Below are positions 1 to 63,892 of a stretch of DNA of 64,000 nucleotides, piece by piece. Both the position numbers and the translations under genes were made by a program. Within the stretch, counting starts at the first letter, position 1. Each line of letters starts with the position of its first letter. Under the pieces are notes generated by a model. That model did no database searches. It was given only the letters and a program-made list of their open reading frames with translations, and was not told the DNA's origin. Origin of the DNA: Luteitalea sp. TBR-22 (GTDB taxonomy: Bacteria; Acidobacteriota; Vicinamibacteria; Vicinamibacterales; Vicinamibacteraceae); NCBI RefSeq assembly GCF_016865485.1, contig NZ_AP024452.1, positions 2,688,501-2,752,500 on the forward strand, given 5' to 3'.

Positions 1-1584
1 GACGAGGGTGCCGCCGGTCAGTCGCCCTGACGTCGGCGTCATCCCGGTCACCTGCACGTCGGCCGGGGCGGCCGCCGGCTCGCTGATGGGGCCGGTCCAC
101 GGCGTCCCGGCGTTGGCGTGGCCGCCGACGAAGCCGCTCCAGTACATCGCGCGCTCGGCGACGAACGGCTGCGGCGCCGCGCCGACGCTCTCCAGGAAGA
201 CGGCGAAGCGCCGGCCCTGCAGCAGCGCGAACTTCTGGTCGGTCTCGGGGTTGCCGGTCACGGCCGGCCAGATGTTGGTGCGCGTGTTGGCCGGGACCTT
301 CACCGTCGCGGTGACGCCGCTGCCGTCCTCGGTGGCGAACGTCGCCTTCACGTCGATGTCGCTCGCGTTCGGGTTCACCAGCAGGAAGAAGCTGTCGAAG
401 CTGACGCCGCCGGGATCGTCACCCTGTCGGCCCTCGGCGAAGGCCCACTTGACCTCGGGCCGCGCGATGCCGGCCACGACGTGCCCTTCCTTCCACGGGA
501 ACGTCGGCGTCGTGGGATCGTCGGCGGCGGGCGCGCCCCAGTAGACGGCGCGTTCGGCGACGATCGGGATCGAGCTGTCGATGCGCACCGAGAATGCCGT
601 CGACGGCAACAGCAGCGTCCCGTCGTCGGCCCGCTCCTGGTCGGTCCAGATGTTGAAGCGACTCCGCGCCAGGACGGTGTAGGTGCGCGTCACCGGCGCG
701 CCGCTGTCGCGGAAGTAGGTGGCCGTCACCGTCGCCGGCTGCGCGTTGTCGTTGCCGATGAGCAGGAACGTCTCGAACGCGGTCGTCGCGCTTCCGCCCG
801 TGAACCCTTCTGCGAAGTACCAGCTGCGGCGTCCCTCGGTGACGCCGAGCGCGTCGTGGCCGCTGCGGAAGTCGTCGAAGTACATCGCCCGCTCGGCGAC
901 GACCGGCTGGTCCGACTCCACGACGGTCGAGAAGCCCTGGTCGGCGAGCCTCGGATTGGCGCTGGGCCAGAGCGTGGCGCGATTGCCCGCCTCCACCGTG
1001 ATCGCCTCGGAGACGCTGGTCCCGTCGCCCTTGAGGTAGCGCGCCGTGACCCTCGCGGCTCGACTGCCGGGGTTGGCGATGAGGATGAACGTGCTGAAGA
1101 CGCCCGAGGCGCCCTCGGCAAGGATCCAGCGCGTGGCCGGCGCGGTCACGCCGCTGGCGCCGGTGCCACCGGCGTAGGGGGTGCCGCTGAGCGGGAAGAA
1201 CATCGACCGCTCGACGACGATGTCGGCCGGCGTGCTGGTGTCCTTCACCACTGCGGAGACCTGGGCCGAGGCCGCGCCATTGAGTGCCGCGAACTCCTTC
1301 TTGATGTTGACCGTGAGGCGACCGGTCGCCGGCAGGGTGAAGGTCTTCTCCAGCGGGCTGCCGGGAGGCGTGATCAGGGCATCGGGGGCCGGGAGCAGCT
1401 TGACCGTGACGGTCAACGCACTTGCCGACGGATTGCCGACCAGGATGTCCTCGTCGAACGTGCCGTTGCTGGCGCCCTCGGCCAGGAACCACGTGCTGGA
1501 CCCCTGGGCCTCCGCCCGGTCCGCCATCGCCACGCACAGGAGGAGCGCGAGCACGAACCGGGGCCAGGCTGACGGCGAATTCAT
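1..1584 (-). CDS. Secreted WxxAEG-repeat protein with C-terminal IPT domain (3' end beyond window)
   Basis: The reading frame is open from an ATG at 1584 to the window edge (528 codons, no stop), so the C-terminus is missing. Residues 1-26 form a signal peptide (hydrophobic FVLALLLCVAMA, then AEAQ). Four repeats of roughly 115 residues follow. Each opens with a W-x-x-AEG motif (STWFLAEGAS, TRWILAEGAS, RSWYFAEGFT, VKWAFAEGRQ) and ends with a VAERAMYF/VVERSMFF-like strand. The last visible residues (VTGMTPTSGRLTGG) match the start of an IPT/TIG immunoglobulin-like domain. The two downstream paralogues continue from this point into an SGNH-type domain, so one is expected here too (inference). 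No clear Shine-Dalgarno precedes the ATG. The function of the repeats is unknown; an extracellular or surface role is inferred from the signal peptide. Confidence 0.8.
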   Translation of the reverse strand, partial: MNSPSAWPRFVLALLLCVAMADRAEAQGSSTWFLAEGASNGTFDEDILVGNPSASALTVTVKLLPAPDALITPPGSPLEKTFTLPATGRLTVNIKKEFAALNGAASAQVSAVVKDTSTPADIVVERSMFFPLSGTPYAGGTGASGVTAPATRWILAEGASGVFSTFILIANPGSRAARVTARYLKGDGTSVSEAITVEAGNRATLWPSANPRLADQGFSTVVESDQPVVAERAMYFDDFRSGHDALGVTEGRRSWYFAEGFTGGSATTAFETFLLIGNDNAQPATVTATYFRDSGAPVTRTYTVLARSRFNIWTDQERADDGTLLLPSTAFSVRIDSSIPIVAERAVYWGAPAADDPTTPTFPWKEGHVVAGIARPEVKWAFAEGRQGDDPGGVSFDSFFLLVNPNASDIDVKATFATEDGSGVTATVKVPANTRTNIWPAVTGNPETDQKFALLQGRRFAVFLESVGAAPQPFVAERAMYWSGFVGGHANAGTPWTGPISEPAAAPADVQVTGMTPTSGRLTGGTLV

Positions 1585-1699
1585 CTGGAGAAAATCGGTA
1601 CGACCGGGGTTTCAGGGTAGCCCGGCGCCATCTCGGCCGCAAGGCGAGACGCTGCCGCCCCCGCCGCTGCCCGCCGTGCCGGTGCTCATACCAGTTGCC

Positions 1700-1738
1700 C
1701 CGCTGCCGGCTGCCCGGCGCCCGGTATCCGGCACCCGC
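1700..1738. repeat. CCGGYGC-type heptamers between two WxxAEG genes
   Basis: CCGCTGC, CGGCTGC, CCGGCGC, CCGGTAT, CCGGCAC lie just before the stop codon of the 1740-4124 gene (minus strand) and match the unit type of the array at 52446-52645. Confidence 0.7.
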
Positions 1739-1739
1739 C

Positions 1740-4124
1740 CTACTTGATGGCCGCCTTGATGGCCCCGTAGACGAAGCTGGCCATCTGGTCGTAGCCGTTC
1801 TGGGTCGGGTGCACGCCGTCCTCGCCGATCTCGACGCGGGTGTCGAAGTCCACGCGCAGGAACTTCTCCTCGGTGGCCATTGTGGCGATGGCAGACCAGA
1901 GGTCACTGCGCATGACGTGGATGCGGCCCATCACCACGGTGGCGCCGGAGTCGCGCGCCGCGCGCCCCATCGTTCGGAGTCCGTTGGCGATGGTGGTGCC
2001 GGTGAAGACCGTTGCGTTCTGGTCGTTGAAGCCCTCGAGAATCACGACGACGTCGTACTTCTTCGCGGCCACCAGCGTGACGATCCGGTCGACGCCGCGG
2101 GTGGTATTGCTCGAGCACCCGACCGTAGTGACGCACTCCCCGGAATAGCCTTCGTTGTCGACCGTCGCGCCGCTCCCGAACCGCGCGTCGGCGCGGAGCA
2201 GGCCCTGCAGGCCCGCCGGGTAGGGGAGCGCCGCCTGGTACGCGGGGAGTCTGGTCGGGGTCGTGGACGGCGGCACGGGCGGGGCGTACTCGACGATCGT
2301 GCCGTACGTCATGCTGTCGCCCATCGCCAGCACCCGGAACCGGCGCGTGAACGTGCCGACCGTCTGCGTCGTGCCGGCGGTCGTCAGGCGGATGGTGCTC
2401 GCCGCGAGCGTGCCGAAGCCGGTGAGCGCCGTGCGCAGCGGCGCGAGCGCCGTGATCTGCGTGGCGGTCGCCGACTGGATCGTCGCCGCCAGCCCATCCA
2501 CAGTGACCTCGGGCGTGCCGGCGAACCCCGTGCCGGTGATGGTGATCAGCTCGCCGCCGCTGAGGCGCATCTCCCTGGGCGTGTAGCCGGTCACCGTGAC
2601 CGCGCCCGGTGCCCGCGAGGGGCTGACGATTGCGCCGGTCCACGGCGTCCCCATGTTGACGTGGCCGCTGGCGAAGTCGGCGTAGAGGTACACGGCACGC
2701 TCGGCGACGAACGATGCGCCTCCCGTGCTCTCGAGGAACGTCGCGAAGCGGCGATTGGCCAGCGCCGCGAACTCCGGCAGGGCCGCCGTCGGCCAGATGT
2801 TGGCGCGGCCGCGCGCCGGGACGACCACCGTGCTCGTGAGGCCGCCGCCGTCCTCGGCCATGAAGGTGGCCTTGACGGTGACGTCGGCGTTCGAGGGGTT
2901 GGACAGCAGGAAGAACGTGCTGTACGGACGATTGCCGGCGTCGACGCCGTCGCGGCCCTCCGCAAAGGCCCACTTCGGCGACAGCACGGTGGATCCGGCC
3001 GTCGCGTGCCCTTCGCGCCACGGGAACGTCGGCGTGGACGGGTCGGCCGCCGAGGGCGTGCCCCAGTACATGGCGCGCTCGGCGACGATCGGCCGGGTCG
3101 CGGTGACCGTCATGCCGAACGAGGCCGCCTTGAGCCGCGCGTCCGCCTCGCGGCCTTCCTGATCCACCCAGATGGTGAGTCGCTGGTTGGGGCCGAGCGG
3201 GTACGTGCGTGCGACGGTCTGCCCGGAGTCCAGCTGGTAGGTGACCGTGGCCGTGGACGCGGCGTCGCTGGGGTTGGCCAGCAGCAAGAACGTCTCGAAG
3301 GCCGTCGTCGCGTTGCCGCCGGTGAAGCCTTCGGCGAAGTACCAGGTGTTGCTCGCCTCGGGGACCCCCAGCGCATCGTGACCACTGCGGGCGAAGCCGC
3401 TGCCGGTCGTCGACGGATCGAAGTACATCGCGCGTTCCGCGACGATGTCCTCGCCGGCCTCGAGGCTCTCGACCACCGTGGAGAACTCGGCCGACCCGAG
3501 CTGGGTGGGGTAGTCGTTCTGCGGCCAGAAGGTCGTCCGACTGCTCGGTGGGAGCGCCTGGGTGAACGTGATCACCTCGCCGGTGCTCTTGAGATACCTG
3601 ACGCGGACGGTGGTCGACGAGGTGTTGGGGTTGGCCACGAGGATGAACGTGCTGAACGCGCCGCTCGCACCCTCGGCGAGGATCCAGCGGGGTTCGGCCT
3701 GCGTGACGCCGCTCGCGTTGTGCGCGCCGAGGCGCGTGCCGTCGGGGAAGTACATCGAGCGCTCGACGACGATGTCGGCCGGGGTCGTCGAGTTGGCGAC
3801 GGTTGCCGACACCTCGGCAGAGGCGGCGCCGTTCAGACCCGGAAGCTCCTGCGCCACCCGCACCGTGAGGCGGCTGGTCGGGCCGAGGGGGAACGTCTTG
3901 CTCAACACGGCGCCCGGCGCGATGACGGCGCTGGCGTCGGGCAGCAGGCGCACGGTGACGGCCAGCGTCAAGGCGGTCGGGTTGGCGACGAGGATTTCCT
4001 CCTCGAGCACGGCGTTGCTGGCGCCCTCGGCCAGGAACCAGCGCGAGGCGTCCTGGGCTGCCACCGGCACGACCACGACCAACAGGGAGACGAACAGCGC
4101 GGCGACTCGAAGCATGGCAGGCAC
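1740..4124 (-). CDS. Secreted WxxAEG-repeat / IPT / SGNH (GDSL) hydrolase
   Basis: The protein has 794 residues. A signal peptide (about residues 1-24, ending VAAQ) precedes four WxxAEG repeats up to about residue 500, then an IPT/TIG domain (about 505-595) and a C-terminal SGNH hydrolase domain. The catalytic elements look intact: Ser604 in MGDSMTYG, the block-III Asn in EGFNDQN, and Asp769/His772 in DGVHPTQNG. The family cleaves esters of lipids, acetylated sugars or similar substrates; the substrate here is unknown. GTG at 4124 is chosen because an AGAGGA sequence lies about 10 nt upstream; an in-frame ATG at 4115 is the alternative. It begins 15 nt after the stop of the membrane protein at 4140-5846, so the two are probably cotranscribed. 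Confidence 0.85.
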   Translation of the reverse strand: MPAMLRVAALFVSLLVVVVPVAAQDASRWFLAEGASNAVLEEEILVANPTALTLAVTVRLLPDASAVIAPGAVLSKTFPLGPTSRLTVRVAQELPGLNGAASAEVSATVANSTTPADIVVERSMYFPDGTRLGAHNASGVTQAEPRWILAEGASGAFSTFILVANPNTSSTTVRVRYLKSTGEVITFTQALPPSSRTTFWPQNDYPTQLGSAEFSTVVESLEAGEDIVAERAMYFDPSTTGSGFARSGHDALGVPEASNTWYFAEGFTGGNATTAFETFLLLANPSDAASTATVTYQLDSGQTVARTYPLGPNQRLTIWVDQEGREADARLKAASFGMTVTATRPIVAERAMYWGTPSAADPSTPTFPWREGHATAGSTVLSPKWAFAEGRDGVDAGNRPYSTFFLLSNPSNADVTVKATFMAEDGGGLTSTVVVPARGRANIWPTAALPEFAALANRRFATFLESTGGASFVAERAVYLYADFASGHVNMGTPWTGAIVSPSRAPGAVTVTGYTPREMRLSGGELITITGTGFAGTPEVTVDGLAATIQSATATQITALAPLRTALTGFGTLAASTIRLTTAGTTQTVGTFTRRFRVLAMGDSMTYGTIVEYAPPVPPSTTPTRLPAYQAALPYPAGLQGLLRADARFGSGATVDNEGYSGECVTTVGCSSNTTRGVDRIVTLVAAKKYDVVVILEGFNDQNATVFTGTTIANGLRTMGRAARDSGATVVMGRIHVMRSDLWSAIATMATEEKFLRVDFDTRVEIGEDGVHPTQNGYDQMASFVYGAIKAAIK

Positions 4125-4139
4125 GTGGAACGATTCCTC

Positions 4140-5846
4140 TTACGGGACGCGCTCGTACAGGACCGTGGTCTCGTCGCGTGCGATCGCACGCCAGCGTCCC
4201 GAGGCGTCGATCAGGTCGCGGGCTTCGCGACGCTGGCTGCCGTACTCCGCGAGGTGGAGGACGAGGTAGCGCACGCCGGCACGGTCCAGTTCGTCGAAAC
4301 TGGCGCTCCTGAATGGAAAGTACCAGAGGACGTCGGCCCGGCGTCGATACGATTCCGGCGTGAAGCCGCTGTAGCCGTTGAGCAACGGCTTCCAGTGCGT
4401 GGTCGAGTCGAGCATGTAGTTGGCGTTGCGGGGCACGTCGATGCCGCGCCACCAGAACGGCATCTCGGCCACGACCCCGTCGGGGCGGGTCGCCAGCACC
4501 GCGTACACCGACGAGATGGGAGCTGCCGGCACGTACGGCACAGGACCACGGAACGCCTCGACGTTCACCGCCACCAGCGCAAGCCCTGCCAGGACCCCGG
4601 CGCGCTGCGGCCATCGTCGAGCCATCGCCGCGACCCCGAAGGCCGCGAGGATGGCCAGGCCTGTCAGCAGGAGGACGCCGAAGCGAGAGGCGGCGCGCAC
4701 GCCGCTGGCGAACGGCACCAGATGGTAGAAGGCGCGGTACACCGGCGTGGCTGGCCCGAACGACAGCACGAGACCGACGGCAACGAGGCCCATCGCGATG
4801 CGCACGTGTGGGTGTCTCCACGCCGGGACGGCGTCGGTGCCATCGGCCGCGCGGGCCGGCCGGCCAGCCGCGTCCATCGCCCGGGGGCTGCGCCACCCCA
4901 ACGCCGCGAGTGCCAGCAGCACGGCGGCCACTCCGGGGAAGAGGGAATCGCGCGGCTCACGCGTCTGGTACACGTGGCGCGCCCACGCCTCGTGGACGCG
5001 CGCCGGCGTGGCCATGTAGGCCGCGCCGTTGGCCGACATCGCCGCGACGAGGTCGAGCGATCGCTCGAAGCCGTGCGTCGCCTGCATCTCGCGGTAGGCG
5101 TGCATCACCGGCACGACGGGGAGCGCCAGGAGCACGCTGCCGACGACGGCGCCGGCGACGAGGGGTCGCCAGGGCGGCTGCAGCCAGCCGCGCAGGCGCA
5201 CGACCAGCACGATCAGGCCGCAGACGATGCCGAAGATGGCCAGGTAGCCCGAGGTCAGGGCCAGCAGCGCCGTCGCGACGCCGGCCAGCGCGCCGTGCCA
5301 CCAGCGCCGTTCCTGCGGGTCGCCGAGGGCGTCGAGTGCCACCAGGAGCAGCGGCAACCCGTAAGCGTGGATGGCCTGGATGTGGCCCATGCTCACCAGG
5401 GAGTGCGCGTTGAACGCGTACAGGCTGGCGGCGACCAGGGCCGGCCAGAATCGCCCCGTCCATCGCCAGGCCAGCCACCACATGGACCACGCCGACAGCG
5501 CGTATCCGAGCAGCAGCGAGAGGTTGTAGGTCAGCACCGGCCCGGCGCCCGCGGCGCGCACCGGCACCGAGAGCGCACCCGGAATGATGACCGGGTCGGA
5601 GAACGCGATGGTGTTGCGTTCGGGATGGAAGATGTTGCCCGCGAGCACGCGCGAGGGCGCCGTCACCAACGCATGCGCCACCCAGGTGATGGCCCAGGTG
5701 TTGAGGACGGTGTCCTTGTTGTCGTTGCGACTCAGCGTCGCCGGGGCGGATGCCAGCGGCCAGGTGTGGATCACCGAGAGCAGCAGGCAGATGGCGAAGG
5801 CCGCGAGTGCGCGGCGCGCTCGCGGCAGCTGGGGCTCAGGGCTCAA
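4140..5846 (-). CDS. Polytopic membrane protein, GT-C glycosyltransferase-like
   Basis: The protein has 568 residues with about ten hydrophobic segments (for example AAFAICLLLSVIHTWPLA near the N-terminus and VAVGLVLSFGPATPVY in the middle) and a hydrophilic C-terminal part of about 140 residues. The loop after the first membrane helix carries NDNKDTVLNTWAITW, an acidic loop reminiscent of GT-C-fold glycosyltransferases and YfhO/DUF2079-type proteins; no specific family is certain. The only start near the first helix is a TTG at 5846. It lies inside a heptameric repeat array, so residues 2-6 (SPEPQ) are encoded by the repeat and no Shine-Dalgarno is visible. It precedes the SGNH gene by 15 nt. 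A role in glycosylating exported proteins or polysaccharides is a guess. Confidence 0.65.
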   Translation of the reverse strand: MSPEPQLPRARRALAAFAICLLLSVIHTWPLASAPATLSRNDNKDTVLNTWAITWVAHALVTAPSRVLAGNIFHPERNTIAFSDPVIIPGALSVPVRAAGAGPVLTYNLSLLLGYALSAWSMWWLAWRWTGRFWPALVAASLYAFNAHSLVSMGHIQAIHAYGLPLLLVALDALGDPQERRWWHGALAGVATALLALTSGYLAIFGIVCGLIVLVVRLRGWLQPPWRPLVAGAVVGSVLLALPVVPVMHAYREMQATHGFERSLDLVAAMSANGAAYMATPARVHEAWARHVYQTREPRDSLFPGVAAVLLALAALGWRSPRAMDAAGRPARAADGTDAVPAWRHPHVRIAMGLVAVGLVLSFGPATPVYRAFYHLVPFASGVRAASRFGVLLLTGLAILAAFGVAAMARRWPQRAGVLAGLALVAVNVEAFRGPVPYVPAAPISSVYAVLATRPDGVVAEMPFWWRGIDVPRNANYMLDSTTHWKPLLNGYSGFTPESYRRRADVLWYFPFRSASFDELDRAGVRYLVLHLAEYGSQRREARDLIDASGRWRAIARDETTVLYERVP

Positions 5847-6008
5847 GGCGCAGGGGCTCAGGGCTTGACGGCTCAGGGCTCACGGCTCACGGCTCAAAGG
5901 TCAGAAGCTCCGAGTCCCGAGCGCCAAGGCCCAAGACTCAAGGCCCAAGGCCCAAGGCCCAGGGCCCAGGGTCCAGGGTCCAGGGCCCAGGGCCCAGGGC
6001 CCAAGGCC
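5831..6008. repeat. Heptameric repeat array (GGCTCAG then GGCCCAA/GGCCCAG types)
   Basis: Seven-base units run through the gap and into the first codons of the membrane protein gene. They are first of the type GGCTCAG, GGCTCAA, GGCTCAC, then GGCCCAA, GGCCCAG, GGTCCAG. Units vary mainly at the last two or three bases while the GGC core is kept. The register slips in places (for example around 5905-5930). Confidence 0.85.
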
Positions 6009-6015
6009 GAGCGGC

Positions 6016-6050
6016 GCCCTCGGACGCACGAGCGTGCGGCGTCCGAGGGC
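6016..6050 (-). terminator. Terminator-like hairpin downstream of the 6062-8599 gene
   Basis: A perfect 12-bp inverted repeat (GCCCTCGGACGC at 6016-6027, GCGTCCGAGGGC at 6039-6050) with an 11-nt loop lies 11 bases past the stop codon at 6062. No T-run follows on the minus strand, so it is a stable 3' hairpin rather than a canonical intrinsic terminator. Confidence 0.5.
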
Positions 6051-6061
6051 GTGAGCGTGCG

Positions 6062-8599
6062 TTACGGGTTCAGCGGGCAGCCCTTGCCCGGCTTGTCGTT
6101 GCGGCGGTCGCAGGGCTGCAGCGGGAACTCGCGGGCGACCTTGGTGAGCAGGTCGCTCGACACCTGGTCGGCGCCCGACTGCGTGGGAGTGCCGCCCGAG
6201 GTCTGCACCCGGAACAGCGACTGCCGATAGATCTCCGCGCCGAGCGACGTGTCGGTGGTCACGCCCCAGATCGCGTCGCCCAGAGCCTTCACCGACGTCG
6301 AGTCGAGGCTGCCGATGGCGGTCTCTTCCCACTTGGTCATGAAGATGGTGATCTTGCGGTTCTTGGCGCTGGTCACCATGCTGCGCAGGGCGTTGGCCAC
6401 GCTGTTGACCGAGATGCCCGCCTCGACGTCGTTGACGCCCGTGGCGAAGATGACGCCATCGAACTCGTCGGACAGGTTGGCGGCCTTCACCTGGTCGGCC
6501 AGCGACGGGAAGCGCGCCGAGCCCGCCGTGCCGGTGCAGCCGGGACCGGTGGCCGAGGTGCACTCGTTGGCGACGCCGGCGTTGGTCACCTTCACGTACT
6601 CGCCGAACTGCAGCACCTTCTGGCCGGTCGGCGACTGCGCGGCGCTGCCGCTCGTCGTGTAGAGGTCCTTCTGGTACGCCTTGAGCCGGTTCTCGAGGCT
6701 CTTCGGCCATGGCGTCGCGAGGCCGCCGCCGAGCACGTGCTCGTCACCGAAGGCGAGCAGGTTCAGCCGGAACGTGAAGCCGTTGGTCAGCGTCGTGCTG
6801 CTGCCGTCGGGGTTGACCACGCGCACGGTGGTCGGGCCGGCCGTCTGGTAGCCGTTGTAGAAGTCGCGCGCCGGCGTGAGCAGAGTGATGGTCGAGCCGT
6901 CCTGCGACACGACGACGCTCTGGCCCTGGTCGACGTCGGCGAGCACCGTGTTGGCGTTCCGATCGGCGGTCCAGGCCGCGTTGTCGAAGTACACCTTCGC
7001 GCCCTGCTGGAAGCCGCCGCCGCGAATCGTGACCGCCTGGCCACCGCTGATGCGGCCGATCGACGGCGACACCTCGGTGATGGCGAAGGCCGGGGCCACC
7101 GGCGGCGTGGCGATGGTGCCCGTCCACGGCGTGCCGACGTTCACGTGACCGGCCAGGAAGCCGTCGCCCGAGTACACGGCGCGCTCGGCCACGAACGTCG
7201 CGCCAGCGCTCGCCGGGCAGGCGGGATCGGCACTGGCAATCGACTCGAGGAAGGTGGCGAAGCGCTGGCCCGACAACTCCACGAAGTCGGCCGTCCAGAT
7301 GTTGGCGCGCGAGTTGGCCGGCACGCACAGCGAGCGCACGATGCCCTTGCCGTCTTCACGGACGAACGTCGCCTGCACCTTGATCGGCGTGCCGTTGGGG
7401 TTGGCCAGCAGCATGAACGTGTTGAACGTCGTCGCGCTCGTGCCGAAGACGCCCTGCTGTCCCTCGGCGAACGCCCACTTGGCCTGCGCGGCCGTCACGC
7501 CGGCCGTCGCATGGCCTTCACGCCAGGGGAACGGTGCCCAGGTCGGGTCCGAGGCCAACGGGGTGCCCCAGTACAGCGCGCGCTCGGCCACGATTGGCTG
7601 GGTCGCCGTGACGCGCATGCCGAAGGCGGCCGCCTTGAGGCGGGCGTCGACGGCGCGGCCTTCCTGGTCCACCCACACGGTAGTGCGCTGACGGGGCTGC
7701 AGCGGGTAGTTGATCGTCACCACCTGGCCGCTGTCGAGCAGGTAGTCCACCGTCGCGATGGTGGCCGTGTTGTTGGTGTTGGCCAGCAGCAGGAAGGTCT
7801 CGAAGGCGATCGAGCCGTTTCCGGCGGTGTTGCCCTCGGCGAAGAGCCAGGTGGTGCTCGGGCTGGTCACGCCCAGGGCATCGTGGCCGCTCTTGAAGGC
7901 GTCGAAGTACATCGCGCGCTCGGCGATCACCTCGCTGCCGGGCGTGAGCGACTCGATCACCGTCGAGAAGTCTGCCGATCCGAGGGCGACGTGCTCGCCG
8001 CGCGGGTAGAAGGTGACGCGCGAGTTGGCCGGCGCCGTCTGGGTGGTGGTGAACGACTGGCCGGTACCGGTGAGGTACGTGGCGCGCACCTCGGTCGGGG
8101 TGGCGTTCGGGTTGGCCACCAGGACGAAGGTCTCGAACACCCCGCCGGTGCCCTCGGCCAGGGTCCAGGTCTCGGAGAGGCCGTCCTGGGTGACGCCGCT
8201 GGCGTTGTGCGAGCCGGGCTGCGTGGCGCCCTGGAAGTACATCGTGCGCTCGACGACGATGTCGGCCGGGGTCGTGGTGTTGGCCACGACGGCCGTCACG
8301 CGGGCCGAGGCGCTGCCGTTGAGGTTGAAGTCGGACCCGAGGCGCACCGTGAGCCGCGACGAGGCCGCGAGCGGGAACGACTTGGTCAGGGTCGGGGCCT
8401 GCGCGTCGGCCTGCGGCAGCAGGGTGACGGTCACCGTGAGCGCCTGCGAGGACGGGTTGCCGACGAGAATCTCCTCGGTGAAGGTGCTGTTGTTGGCGCC
8501 CTCGGCCAGGAACCACGTCGACGCGCCTTGCGCGAACGCGTGCGGCACGGTGGCCAGGAGGGCGAGGGCCGCCAGAGCGGCGCCACGGAACCAGGTCAT
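6062..8599 (-). CDS. Secreted WxxAEG-repeat / IPT protein with degenerate SGNH domain
   Basis: The protein has 845 residues from the ATG at 8599, chosen because GGAGG sits 6 nt upstream and a signal peptide (GAALAALALLATVPHAFAQ) starts there; an upstream in-frame start would prepend an Arg-rich stretch. It contains four WxxAEG repeats (about residues 25-500), an IPT/TIG domain (about 515-605) and a C-terminal region aligning with the SGNH domain of the neighbouring paralogue. Block III is recognisable (IFATGVNDVE). However, the nucleophile position reads FGDEHVLGG, with Glu620 where Ser is expected. The Asp/His block reads SGGTPTQSG, with Ser801 and Thr804 where Asp and His are expected. It is therefore probably a non-catalytic SGNH fold, perhaps a binding module. 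It is transcribed divergently from the metalloprotease gene at 8928. Confidence 0.82.
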   Translation of the reverse strand: MTWFRGAALAALALLATVPHAFAQGASTWFLAEGANNSTFTEEILVGNPSSQALTVTVTLLPQADAQAPTLTKSFPLAASSRLTVRLGSDFNLNGSASARVTAVVANTTTPADIVVERTMYFQGATQPGSHNASGVTQDGLSETWTLAEGTGGVFETFVLVANPNATPTEVRATYLTGTGQSFTTTQTAPANSRVTFYPRGEHVALGSADFSTVIESLTPGSEVIAERAMYFDAFKSGHDALGVTSPSTTWLFAEGNTAGNGSIAFETFLLLANTNNTATIATVDYLLDSGQVVTINYPLQPRQRTTVWVDQEGRAVDARLKAAAFGMRVTATQPIVAERALYWGTPLASDPTWAPFPWREGHATAGVTAAQAKWAFAEGQQGVFGTSATTFNTFMLLANPNGTPIKVQATFVREDGKGIVRSLCVPANSRANIWTADFVELSGQRFATFLESIASADPACPASAGATFVAERAVYSGDGFLAGHVNVGTPWTGTIATPPVAPAFAITEVSPSIGRISGGQAVTIRGGGFQQGAKVYFDNAAWTADRNANTVLADVDQGQSVVVSQDGSTITLLTPARDFYNGYQTAGPTTVRVVNPDGSSTTLTNGFTFRLNLLAFGDEHVLGGGLATPWPKSLENRLKAYQKDLYTTSGSAAQSPTGQKVLQFGEYVKVTNAGVANECTSATGPGCTGTAGSARFPSLADQVKAANLSDEFDGVIFATGVNDVEAGISVNSVANALRSMVTSAKNRKITIFMTKWEETAIGSLDSTSVKALGDAIWGVTTDTSLGAEIYRQSLFRVQTSGGTPTQSGADQVSSDLLTKVAREFPLQPCDRRNDKPGKGCPLNP

Positions 8600-8927
8600 G
8601 CGAAGCCTCCGCTGCCGCAGGAACCCGGCCATCGGGAACGGCGGCAAACCCTCGGATTATAGGAGAAAGAAGAAGAAAAATCCCCGCAGTCGGATTTGAT
8701 TTCGAATAAAGCGTCGGTCGGCGAATTTGCCCGGGTTTGCGCGCGGCATCCTGGCCCGTTCGAGCCTGCCGTGCCGACGCCGGGCAGACGGCCGTCGGTT
8801 CCGGCCACATTTCTGTCAGGCCGCGTGCAGTTTCGTAATCACGGCCCCTTGCTCCCTCGCGGGGCCAGAGCGGAAACGGCCCCGTGACGGCGTCGATATT
8901 GGAAAACTCGACGGCAGGGGAGTTGCA
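8600..8927. other. Divergent intergenic region between two secreted-protein genes
   Basis: This 328-base region separates divergent genes. The first 110 bases are locally AT-rich (purine-rich GAGAAAGAAGAAGAAAAA at about 8663-8680) and hold the promoter for the minus-strand gene. A GGGGAG ribosome-binding site for the plus-strand gene lies at 8917-8922. No credible ORF or RNA gene is seen. Confidence 0.6.
8656..8661 (-). promoter_or_regulatory. -10 element for the 6062-8599 gene
   Basis: A perfect TATAAT on the minus strand lies 57 bases upstream of the ATG at 8599, leaving a leader of about 50 nt that carries the GGAGG ribosome-binding site. The region 17 bases upstream (GATTTTT) is a poor match to a -35 box. 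Confidence 0.5.
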
Positions 8928-11900
8928 GTGTCGCGGGTTGGCATGTCCCCGCTTCCCCGGACGCCACGTCCCTCGCTCGCTGCCCTCTCTGCGCTGGCCT
9001 GCGCCACATGGCTGGCGTGCGCACCGTCACCTGCGCTTGCCGCCACCCTCAAGGCACGTACCGACGCCGAGGAGATTGCCGCCGCTGACCGCATCGTGCG
9101 CGGACGGGTCGAGTCGGTCCGCACCGAACGCCGCGCCGGGTCGGGCGCCATCGAGACGGTGGCGCGTGTCCGCGTGGTCGACGACTACACGGGCGGCACC
9201 GATCGGGTCATCGAGATCCGTGAACTCGGGGGCACCGTCGGCGACACCACGTTGGTGGTCCCCGGCGCCGCGCGGTTCCTCGTGGGTGACGACATCGTCG
9301 CCCTCGTCGAGCGCAAGGCGGGCGGGTGGCGTCCGTCGGCGATGGGGCGTTCGATCTTCGGCGTGCGCCAGTCGGCCGCCGGCACCGAACTGGTACGCCA
9401 GGACACCGACGAACCCCTCGTCGGTGCGGCGACGCCGGGACCCGGCCGTCGGTCGCTGGCCAGTTTCGACGCCGCCGTCCGGGCAGTGCGCCGGCAGGCG
9501 CCGACGCGGCTGTCTTCTCCCGGCGTCGCCCCTTCCATCGGCGAGGTGGCCGCCGTGATGCCGACCGTGGAAGGCTTCCGCCTCCTCGGCAACATGCGCT
9601 GGCACGAGGCCGACAGCGGCCTGCCGGTGACCTGGTACCGCAACACGCTGACCGCGCCACCGCTGGACTCGGGCAACAGCGAGGCCGAACTCGGGCAGGC
9701 GATGGCCGCCTGGACCAACCCCGCGTCCGCTTCGATCACCCTGGTGTACGGCGGCACGCGGGTGGTGGCCGCCAACGCGACGCTGAACTGCGGCGCGCCG
9801 CCGGTCCCCGGCGGCGGCCTGATCACCTACGAGGATCCTGACGACGACATCACCACGAGCGGCGTGATCGCCATCGGCGGCGCGTGCTCGGGCAGCCCCA
9901 CCAGGATCGTCAACGGCACCACCTTCTCCAGGATCACCTACGGGTTCGTGATCTTCACGACGAAGGCGGAGATGGCGCCCCTGGGTCAGTCCCTGTTCCT
10001 GGCGCGGGTTGCCGAGCACGAGGTCGGGCACGCCATCGGCCTTGGCCACACGCCGACCGATGGCTCGGTCGCCAACGCGACCAGCAACATCATGTACCCC
10101 TCGTGCTGCCAGACGGTGACGCCGGTGCCGCCGGCGATCGGCCCCGACGACCTCGCCGGGCTGCAGTTCATCTACCCGGTCGACAGTGGCAGCGGCGGGT
10201 CGTGCACGTACGACGTGACGCCGTCGGTCCAGTCGATCGGCTACGGCGGCGGCGTGGTGACGCCGTTCTCGGTCAACACCGGCAGCGCCTGCACGTGGAG
10301 CGTGGCGAGCACGGCGTCCTGGCTCACGCTGTCGGGGCCGGCCACCCGCACAGGACCGGGCACCATCAGTTACGTGGCGGCGGCCAACAACGGCACGGCG
10401 CGCGGCGCCGCGGTGACCATCGCCGGCAAGGGCGTGACCGTGCAGCAGGAGGCCTCGCCGGTGATCGCCCCGACCGACACCGACAACGACGGCCTGCCGG
10501 ACGCCTGGGAGATTCAGGCCGGGCTGAATCCTGCGGTCGGGACCGGCGCCGACGGCGCGACCGGCGACCCCGACGGCGACGGACTCACCAACCTGCAGGA
10601 GTACCAGCGTCGCCTGCATCCGCGCGGCGTCGTCCAGCGGTACCTCGCCGAAGGGGTGCAGAACACGTTCTTCGCGACGCGCATCGCGCTGGTCAACCCG
10701 AGCGCGACCGTGACGGCCTACGTGCAGCTCCGCTTCGCGACGCCGCCCGATGCCGACGGCGTGGTGACCACGACCGAGCACTGGGTGACGATCGCGCCGC
10801 GCCGGCGGGCGACGCTGGACGTCGGCACGGTGGCCGGGGTGCGCGACTCGTTCGCCACGACGATCGAGTCGAGCACGCTGGTGGTCGCCGACCGCACGGT
10901 CAGCTGGGATGGCACCGGCTACGGCAGCCACGCCGAGAGCGCCACCGAGGCGCCGCGCACCACCTGGTACTTCGCCGAAGGCGCGACGATGGCCGGCTTC
11001 AACACGTTCTACCTGCTGTTGAACCCGGGTACGGCAGCCGCCGAGACGACGATCACGTACCTGCGCGCCGGTCGTGCCCCGCGGACCAAGTCCTACACCG
11101 TGGCGCCGGGGGCCCGCCTGACGGTCTGGGTGGACATGGAGCGCTGGTCCGACGGTGACTCGCTCGAGGCCGCCGAAGTCTCGGCGCGGATCGACGCCTC
11201 GGCGCCGATCATCGCCGAGCGGGCCATGTACCTCGATCGCAACGGCCAGGTGTTCACGGCGGGCCACGACAGCGTCGCCCTGACGGCGCCGGCCGAGCGC
11301 TGGCTGCTCGCCGAGGGCGCCACGGGCAGCTACTTCGACCTCTTCATCCTGCTCGCCAACCCGTCGAGCCAGGACGCCAACGTGCGTCTCCGGTTCCTGC
11401 TCGGCGACGGCACCGTCATCGAGCACCGGGAAATGGTGCCGGCGATGGCGCGTGGCACGGTCTGGGTCGACGCCCTCGGTCGCGATGCGACCCTGATCGC
11501 CCGCAACCCGGACTACGCACGGTTGGCCGACACCGCGGTCTCGACCGACGTGATCGTCGACAACGGCGTCGGCATCCTGGTGGAGCGGTCGATGTGGTGG
11601 CCGGGGGATTCGAGCACATGGGGCGAGGCGCACAACAGCGGCGGCGTGACGGCCCCGGCGTTAAGGTGGGCTCTGGCCGAGGGGGAAGTGGGCGGCGCGC
11701 GCAACACCAAGACCTACGTGCTGGTGAGCAACCCGTCGGGCACCAGCGCGACCATCACGGTGACGATGGTGTCGGAGACCGGCGCGCCCGAGCAGCAGGT
11801 CTACACGGTGGGCGCCAACAGCCGCTTCAACATCGCCCTGGGCGACGCGGGATTCTTCCCCAGTGCTCTCGGCAAGCGGGTCGGCCTGCTCGTCGAGAGC

Positions 11901-11999
11901 AGCGCCGTGCCGATCGTCGTCGAGCGCGCGATGTACAGCGACGCGGGCGGGCAGCAGTGGGCGGCGGGCACCAATGCGGTGGCGACCAAGCTGCCCTAG
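8928..11999 (+). CDS. Secreted matrixin-like zinc metalloprotease with BACON and WxxAEG repeats
   Basis: The protein has 1023 residues from the GTG at 8928, chosen because GGGGAG lies 5 nt upstream; ATG 8943 is an alternative. The signal peptide spans about residues 1-38. The zinc motif HEVGHAIGLGH (His364, Glu365, His368, His374) and the Met-turn NIMYP (about residue 389) identify a metzincin/matrixin-type peptidase. A BACON-like beta domain follows at about 424-510. A calcium-binding thrombospondin-3-like Asp-rich stretch (DTDNDGLPD ... DPDGDGLTN) lies at about 516-560. Four WxxAEG repeats begin near residues 572, 681, 792 and 912. The same repeats occur in the three neighbouring secreted proteins, so this is probably one surface or extracellular system. 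The substrate is unknown. The stop codon is followed after one base by a composite repeat. Confidence 0.88.
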   Translation: MSRVGMSPLPRTPRPSLAALSALACATWLACAPSPALAATLKARTDAEEIAAADRIVRGRVESVRTERRAGSGAIETVARVRVVDDYTGGTDRVIEIRELGGTVGDTTLVVPGAARFLVGDDIVALVERKAGGWRPSAMGRSIFGVRQSAAGTELVRQDTDEPLVGAATPGPGRRSLASFDAAVRAVRRQAPTRLSSPGVAPSIGEVAAVMPTVEGFRLLGNMRWHEADSGLPVTWYRNTLTAPPLDSGNSEAELGQAMAAWTNPASASITLVYGGTRVVAANATLNCGAPPVPGGGLITYEDPDDDITTSGVIAIGGACSGSPTRIVNGTTFSRITYGFVIFTTKAEMAPLGQSLFLARVAEHEVGHAIGLGHTPTDGSVANATSNIMYPSCCQTVTPVPPAIGPDDLAGLQFIYPVDSGSGGSCTYDVTPSVQSIGYGGGVVTPFSVNTGSACTWSVASTASWLTLSGPATRTGPGTISYVAAANNGTARGAAVTIAGKGVTVQQEASPVIAPTDTDNDGLPDAWEIQAGLNPAVGTGADGATGDPDGDGLTNLQEYQRRLHPRGVVQRYLAEGVQNTFFATRIALVNPSATVTAYVQLRFATPPDADGVVTTTEHWVTIAPRRRATLDVGTVAGVRDSFATTIESSTLVVADRTVSWDGTGYGSHAESATEAPRTTWYFAEGATMAGFNTFYLLLNPGTAAAETTITYLRAGRAPRTKSYTVAPGARLTVWVDMERWSDGDSLEAAEVSARIDASAPIIAERAMYLDRNGQVFTAGHDSVALTAPAERWLLAEGATGSYFDLFILLANPSSQDANVRLRFLLGDGTVIEHREMVPAMARGTVWVDALGRDATLIARNPDYARLADTAVSTDVIVDNGVGILVERSMWWPGDSSTWGEAHNSGGVTAPALRWALAEGEVGGARNTKTYVLVSNPSGTSATITVTMVSETGAPEQQVYTVGANSRFNIALGDAGFFPSALGKRVGLLVESSAVPIVVERAMYSDAGGQQWAAGTNAVATKLP

Positions 12000-18063: not shown

Positions 18064-18161
18064 GCTCCCGACTCCCGACTCCCGCCTCCCGACTCCCGCT
18101 TCCCGATTCCCGACTCCCGACTCCCGACTCCCGATTCCCGACTCCCGATTCCCGACTCCCG
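18064..18161. repeat. Heptamer array, 14 units of NNTCCCG
   Basis: Fourteen uninterrupted seven-base units begin directly after the TAG at 18061-18063. TCCCG is invariant. The first two bases vary in the order GC, AC, AC, CC, AC, CT, AT, AC, AC, AC, AT, AC, AT, AC. The next unit (GGCTCTTC) breaks the pattern. Confidence 0.92.
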
Positions 18162-18275
18162 GCTCTTCCTGTCATATGCCACGCCCTGCCGTTTGACGGG
18201 CCCCGAGCGTCGCGCGAATATCACCGACGCGTTCCCCGGCACGCGCGCACGAGTCCGGGAGGAGGTCAGACGCAG

Positions 18276-49686: not shown

Positions 49687-49752
49687 AGGCTCAGGGCTCT
49701 AGGCTCAGGGCTCAGAAAGCAGGCTGCAGGCTACGGGCTGCAGGCTACGAGG
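49687..49752. repeat. Heptamer array filling the ilvD-ilvB gap
   Basis: Units of the GGCTCAG, GGCTCTA, GGCTGCA and GGCTACG types run from 3 bases before the ilvB start codon to the base before the ilvD stop codon. Confidence 0.85.
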
Positions 49753-52346: not shown

Positions 52347-52445
52347 CGTAAGTCAAAGTTATATTCGTTAGGCAATCATGCGCCGCATTTATTGGATGCG
52401 GCCCGCGCATGGACTGGCGGACTCCGACCTTCGGGCTTCGCAGTC

Positions 52446-52645
52446 GGCCTTGGTCCTTCGGCCTTCGGCCTTCGCTCTTCCCGGTACCCCGTACCCGGTA
52501 CCCGCTACTCGCTGGCCGGTGCCCGGCGCCGGTGCCCGCCGCCCGCCGCCCGCTGCCCGGTGCCCGGCGCCCGGTGCCCGGTGCCCGCTGCCCGCTGCCC
52601 GGTGCCCGGTGCCCGCTGCCCGGTGCCCGGTGCCCGGTGCCCGGC
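52446..52645. repeat. Long heptamer array ending at a -10 box
   Basis: It starts with GGCCTTC/TTCGGCC units, passes through CCGGTAC and CCGCTAC units (about 52481-52515), then about 18 units of CCGGTGC, CCGCTGC, CCGGCGC and CCGCCGC up to 52645. One six-base unit breaks the phase near 52530. TATAAT follows directly. Confidence 0.9.
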
Positions 52646-63848: not shown

Positions 63849-63892
63849 CGACTGCCTTCCCGACTGCCGACTGCCGACTGCCCACTGCCGTC
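63849..63892. repeat. CGACTGC heptamer array
   Basis: CGACTGC units (with one CTTCC interruption and a CCACTGC variant) lie about 65 bases after the laminin-B-like gene. Confidence 0.8.

Follow-up and report, generated by a model that had tools for sequence, protein, structure and literature searches.

Tetrads of ASRAH Domains in Secreted Proteins of Luteitalea sp. TBR-22 and Relatives: A Portable Module That May Close Into a Four-Domain Ring

Introduction

What are the repeat blocks carried by a group of neighboring, apparently secreted proteins of Luteitalea sp. TBR-22, and why does each block hold four repeats? The proteins are located at the start of the window, i.e., the whole stretch of 64,000 nucleotides that was analyzed. 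An initial annotation made from the sequence knew of no described function for the repeat; it was found here to be the ASRAH/ASRT domain, which is already known, as is the existence of tetrads. These were noted in 2009, chiefly in photosynthetic Chloroflexi and in every case with an amidase as fusion partner; dyads and tetrads were suggested to form tetramer-like units, and sugar binding was predicted (De Souza, Iyer and Aravind, PMC2739507). Among the matches listed from the open-access literature, this was the only relevant ASRAH paper, and the open-access literature searched gave no account of closure variants, of an expansion onto free heads or of a count that stays strict across two phyla.

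Results

Gene Layout of the Tetrad Proteins in the Window

Four ORFs of the window (proteins A–D; Table 1) were found to contain four repeats of about 110 residues each, as the initial annotation had stated; for A, the count was completed from the genome (L010:3611-6112), where the protein is complete with four repeats and where its GDSL/SGNH tail is located outside the window. Of the four literal WxxAEG motifs claimed for each protein, D showed only three, one of its four repeats beginning with RYLAEG instead. The genes had been called adjacent, but D is encoded on the opposite strand and a gene for a 568-aa protein separates B from C. In A, B, and C, the SGHD-like end that had been assigned to repeat 3 was detected as SGHDALG at the end of repeat 2. 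For all tetrad proteins, "secreted" refers to a stretch of hydrophobic residues at the N-terminus and an AxA-like site, judged by eye.

Table 1. Tetrad proteins and associated features in the window (positions of the window; strand as read).
Feature	Positions	Strand	Content
Protein A, cut by window start	1–1584	-	Signal-like N-terminus, tetrad, TIG
Tetrad of A	76–1494	-	Repeats 1–4: 1132–1494, 826–1131, 451–825, 76–450 (bounds approximate)
Protein B	1740–4124	-	Signal-like N-terminus, tetrad, TIG (about 2421–2597), GDSL_2 hydrolase (about 1788–2327)
Tetrad of B	2601–4043	-	Repeats 1–4: 3690–4043, 3348–3689, 2976–3347, 2601–2975
568-aa probable membrane protein between B and C	4140–5846	-	Weak GT87 match, 16.4 bits vs. 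cut-off 25
Protein C	6062–8647	-	Signal-like N-terminus, tetrad, TIG, degenerate SGNH-like tail
Tetrad of C	7106–8518	-	Repeats 1–4: 8171–8518, 7853–8170, 7481–7852, 7106–7480
Protein D	8727–11999	+	Signal-like N-terminus, M10-like metalloprotease (about 9993–10175), BACON (10293–10451), TSP3 (10476–10523), tetrad at C-terminal end
Tetrad of D	10635–11996	+	Repeats 1–4: 10635–10961, 10962–11297, 11298–11663, 11664–11996; repeat 1 begins RYLAEG

Three of the proteins had been considered to be of SGNH type. This held for A and B, which match GDSL_2, but not for C, for which no GDSL_2 match was obtained at E 0.001. The tail of C shows GDE instead of the GDS serine of SGNH enzymes and lacks their DxxH motif; with an orthologue of 75% identity in genome G001, protein C may carry a conserved dead esterase. 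The matrixin-like protease proposed for D scored just below the Pfam cut-off (22.4 and 23.5 vs. 24), and the motif HEVGHAIGLGH is present in its sequence. The order A, B, GT87-like gene, C, D was the same in G001, with 65–76% identity, and the GT87-like gene was kept in place (70% identical). All four G001 orthologues contained four repeats, in agreement with the earlier expectation that the repeat number does not vary freely among orthologues.

Identity and Fold of the Repeat

A profile of 121 of the 124 own-genome repeats (alignment A2, from which three weak fourth repeats were omitted, two of L013 and one of L023) matched the PDB sequences of the Anabaena sensory rhodopsin transducer ASRT (2II7; E 2.1e-6) and TM1070 (1NC7; E 1.8e-4), and a W..AEG stretch also opens ASRT itself. 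An AlphaFold2 model of the B tetrad (four sequences; pLDDT 81.1, pTM 0.83) aligned with 1NC7 over 110 residues with a Z of 15.3 and an rmsd of 2.4, the next unrelated row having a Z of 6.1. Because of the profile match and this model similarity, the repeat is assigned to the ASRAH domain in the sense of PMC2739507. Thus, the repeat-profile search and the structure prediction that had been proposed as checks both pointed to the ASRT fold. An unknown fold was ruled out by the profile and model matches. Arrangements that are widespread among Ig-like domains were taken to account for unrelated PDB rows with Z below 7 and for 6XI3, which came first in Foldseek with an rmsd above 41.

Like ASRT and TM1070, the repeats combine this fold with a tryptophan in strand 1, an asparagine in strand 2 and four units. 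The tryptophan at the start of strand 1 was found in 484 of 672 repeats, including 165 of 168 at position 2 of the tetrad; at position 1, it is often replaced by R (41/168) or the strand is absent. The asparagine at the end of strand 2 was present in 665 of 672. ASRT and TM1070 differ in consisting of four separate intracellular chains and in their ligand-contacting His and Cys: at the columns of the ASRT ligand signature SHEshChhN, H (H25) was found in six and C (C29) in 22 of the 672 repeats, and both together in none.

Single own-genome repeats matched, at E up to 1, DUF5719 (PF18986; 37 of 121, best 5e-6) and ASRT (11 of 121). The resemblance to DUF5719 that had been vaguely suggested is thus right at the superfamily level. 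The DUF5719 family, which we take to be the actinobacterial dyad lipoprotein family of the 2009 ASRAH study, has a Pfam gathering score of 26.2, which was passed by several relatives (L090, L109, two of L137, L105, and L170). The four window proteins differed from these: even at E up to 1, none of them matched DUF5719, and they did not reach the gathering score. The initial annotation had further held that a characterized family with a known role would overturn its view, and this is half the case: the family is described, and a role for secreted tetrads has only been predicted.

Count of Four and Inheritance as a Unit

In the genome of Luteitalea sp. TBR-22 (6.47 Mb, one contig), a single-repeat search, which is free of the lean towards four of whole-tetrad searches, gave 125 matches, corresponding to 31 loci with four repeats each and one 69-aa orphan fragment. 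All 31 tetrad ORFs contained exactly four repeats, in tetrads of 431–480 residues. The orphan fragment (L028; G000:C1:1024696-1024905) is located about 2 kb from a tetrad protein with a transglutaminase head. In G001, 122 repeat matches were grouped by hand into 28 tetrad loci and four partial loci, and the two partial loci that were fetched (L180 and L181) were both broken.

Of the fetched ORFs, 158 were not truncated by the end of their locus; 144 of these contained four full repeats, three were permuted tetrads, one had five repeats and 10 were partial pieces, with the qualification that loci L060–L136 represent the best 80 of 548 whole-tetrad matches, so that counts there and around such matches lean towards four. 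The partial pieces (two each in L061 and L141, and one each in L085, L103, L113, L123, L139, and L142) were read as frameshifts or remnants. Because of the five-repeat array (L087:493-3297, Candidatus Solincola sediminis), the count is near-strict and not absolute; its three middle repeats are near-identical, which suggests a recent duplication or an assembly error. Free variation of the repeat number was rejected on these uncut ORFs, and chance or an assembly artefact was ruled out by them together with the own-genome counts.

For 465 of 504 repeats (126 tetrads), the nearest neighbor was the repeat in the same position of another protein, and the position labels changed 52 times on the repeat tree, compared to a mean of 278 in shuffles. 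Judged from these comparisons, position types 1–4 are inherited as one unit.

Heads and Distribution

The view that the tetrad is a common module with exchangeable heads and tails was borne out in the own genome, where the tetrad ends at most 11 residues from the C-terminus in 23 of 31 proteins and is located near the N-terminus in the remaining eight, on unrelated heads. These include GDSL hydrolases with TIG, FG-GAP, fn3, propeller repeats (PD40 and SBBP), DUF11, CarboxypepD_reg, subtilase (two), BACON, cadherin-like, lamin-tail, and transglutaminase families; three of the scanned heads showed no family match, and one head (L029:4497) was scanned apart from the others. By these family matches, glycan enzymes are a minority of the own-genome heads, and amidase families were detected neither there nor in the window proteins.

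Tetrad matches were found in 10 of 24 relatives searched and in five of 297 genomes drawn across the phylum, with five candidates per genome scored; both counts include the own genome. Two distant acidobacterial members in G112 contained four repeats, and the protein from G161 was the permuted form described below. Many Actinomycetota MAGs and one MAG labeled Proteobacteria were shown to carry tetrads among the best 80 of 548 matches. Matching pieces, which are not equal to proteins, were counted in 18 genomes to which tetrad loci had led and numbered 36–159 in 15 of them and 1–6 in three. Heads were scanned in 72 distinct and complete non-acidobacterial ORFs with at least four full repeats, heads above 1100 residues being trimmed at the front. 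SpoIID (10), YkuD (six), Amidase_3 (three), NlpC/P60 (three), and SLH (three) were detected, with counts that may overlap, and peptidoglycan enzymes made up to 22 of the 72 heads. CHU_C matches, obtained with a general library and not a dedicated CTD one, were limited to an Ig-like stretch before the L137 tetrad, with none in tetrad columns.

Compared to the amidase tetrads of PMC2739507, the proteins thus share the same domain in four copies within one secreted chain (secretion being judged by eye here). They differ in that the heads are many and unrelated, with Amidase_3 in three of 72 heads of relatives instead of an amidase in every case, and in that the block can stand at either terminus or be inserted; besides, the own genome holds 31 copies, and closure variants occur.

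Velcro and Permuted Forms

Chain ends were compared in 168 distinct tetrads, 85 from Acidobacteriota and 83 from other organisms, all of which were complete at the 3′ end. The ordinary form, in which repeat 1 starts with its own strand and repeat 4 is not followed by W..AEG, was found in 144 tetrads; the tetrads of the window are also of this form, and none of them is velcro. Another 20 tetrads lack the first strand and carry WYFAEG(Y/C)T (WFFAEGYT in one) in their last residues. The automatic table of first strand versus C-terminal W..AEG was 20/2/2/144; by eye, the four mismatches were one WYFSEG tail, one ORF with an X gap and no tail, and two profile overruns into a motif-free head. After this check, 23 of 168 were velcro forms, i.e., strand 1 of domain 1 is absent in front and present at the C-terminal end. 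Fisher's test gave p = 1e-21 on the raw table, the rows of which are related (the velcro label changes six times on the tetrad tree).

Three proteins (L090, L106, and L109), all paralogues of one Actinomycetota genome, were permuted by half a domain, in the order of a weak end half of a repeat (8–9 bits), three full repeats, a start half (41–44 bits), and then head sequence. The heads of L090 and L109 showed no Pfam family except the repeat, and position profiles scored alike for the candidates for the split domain. The same half-domain permutation, located at the C-terminus, was detected in an acidobacterial propeller protein (L138). The halves of one domain are about 330 or more residues apart, so that folding would require the chain to come back; in both the velcro and the half-domain-permuted forms both ends must meet, which argues for a closed ring. 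The relatedness of the velcro rows and the origin of the three permuted cases from one genome are points against the strength of this support.

For the velcro tetrad of L105, AlphaFold2 (22 sequences) gave a model with a pLDDT of 94.8, a pTM of 0.92 and the tail strand at 421–426; as a predicted model, it matched the ASRT/TM1070 fold with Z 13.2–13.9. The tail is predicted to lie in domain 1, because in 19 of 50 listed rows a single Ig/FN3-like domain aligned over 70–78 residues with both model ends (about 1–5 to 428–433). For the B model, which is of the ordinary form, the alignments cover domain 1 by itself (e.g., 7–90 and 10–88). Thus, the sequences of the velcro and permuted relatives, as well as one predicted model, show chain ends that jointly complete one unit, and the models suggest a rigid four-domain unit.

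Discussion

A Closed Ring as Proposed Explanation

We propose, at a probability of roughly 0.6 for the explanation as a whole, that the tetrad is a closed four-domain ASRAH ring used as a portable module that docks proteins to a surface polymer. Its structural part we regard as very probable. A single chain of four ASRAH beta-sandwich domains would close and do the job of the four-chain ASRT/TM1070 homotetramer, and there would always be four repeats because the ring closes on itself, the number being fixed by closure. The opening of the chain could lie in front of domain 1, behind the first strand of that domain or within a domain, the piece missing there being supplied by the opposite chain end, like the velcro of a beta-propeller; the ordinary form would close as well, as an equivalent of the ASRT tetramer. 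The ring would serve as an extracellular module on heads as unrelated as esterases, proteases, propellers, adhesin-like repeats, and peptidoglycan enzymes. The heads would most probably be docked by it to a polymer at the surface, possibly a glycan of the wall or matrix. We lean, with some reserve, towards docking, while a glycan as the ligand is a tentative suggestion that we place somewhat below even odds. The peptidoglycan-enzyme and SLH heads outside the Acidobacteriota would speak for a glycan, together with the amidase fusions and the sugar argument of PMC2739507; the absence of the ASRT ligand pair (0/672) and the mixed own-genome heads would speak against it.

Three other explanations were considered. 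The one that survives best, itself unlikely, is that the rings stack or tile into an S-layer or fiber on which heads are displayed. The S-layer family Slr4 was matched at E up to 1 by five of 121 own-genome repeats (best 3.6e-5), and some genomes contain tens of tetrad copies, both of which would fit an assembly module; against it, no lattice protein was identified in this analysis, and the order of heads and tails is variable. The Slr4 matches may in themselves indicate a distant link of the repeat to S-layer proteins.

Improbable as well, and ranked after the assembly module, is a string of four independent ASRAH domains acting as a spacer or multivalent binder, in which four would be kept by descent from one ancestral tetrad only. 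The inheritance of position types as a unit would in itself tend to preserve four. However, the strand-swapped and half-domain-permuted forms require both ends to meet, the pTM values of 0.83 and 0.92 indicate fixed domain orientations in the models, and other repeats within the same own-genome proteins vary in number (TIG up to eight and BACON up to four stretches) while the tetrad count is constant. Least likely, the tetrad would be a signal for export or sorting, recognized, like the C-terminal domains of type IX secretion, by a machine dedicated to secretion or anchoring. This would suit the unrelated heads and the fact that 150 of 168 tetrads, and those of 23 of 31 own proteins, end at the C-terminus or close to it, but tetrads are also located near the N-terminus (8/31) and inside the head (L090, L106, and L109), and they are present in both Acidobacteriota and Actinomycetota, the envelope types of which differ.

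Beta-propellers are closed rings of repeats in which a strand is exchanged between the chain ends and closure sets the repeat number. The proposed tetrad ring resembles them in its closure and in the end-strand exchange of the velcro relatives, and differs in that the unit is a whole beta-sandwich domain instead of a four-stranded blade. It appears a little better than an even bet that tetrads represent a propeller-like four-unit ring in which each unit is a whole beta-sandwich domain and the opening point is interchangeable, serving as a general platform for the docking or display of secreted proteins and ranking among the most copied secreted modules (tens per genome) in some uncultured Actinomycetota and in Luteitalea.

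With the proposed ring, the count of four, so far unexplained, would become a structural rule open to test on one protein of 430 residues. A fold is assigned to a module of many hypothetical secreted proteins from little-studied lineages, and naturally occurring chains with one, two or four domains form a series that would trace a route from a homotetramer to a single chain. If docking is true, one module would explain the surface retention of very different enzymes in these bacteria.

Additional Observations

A second cluster, about 80 kb before the window (L009:1730-11743), encodes four proteins with a tetrad and TIG, three of which have in common a cysteine-containing tail (…FPECR) for which no Pfam match was obtained. 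Besides, tandem arrays with a period of seven bases (or 14 or 21) and units differing in sequence were found in the window at 5818–6008, 18065–18165, 49687–49749, 52428–52644, and 63860–63890, the first being located between the GT87-like gene and protein C.
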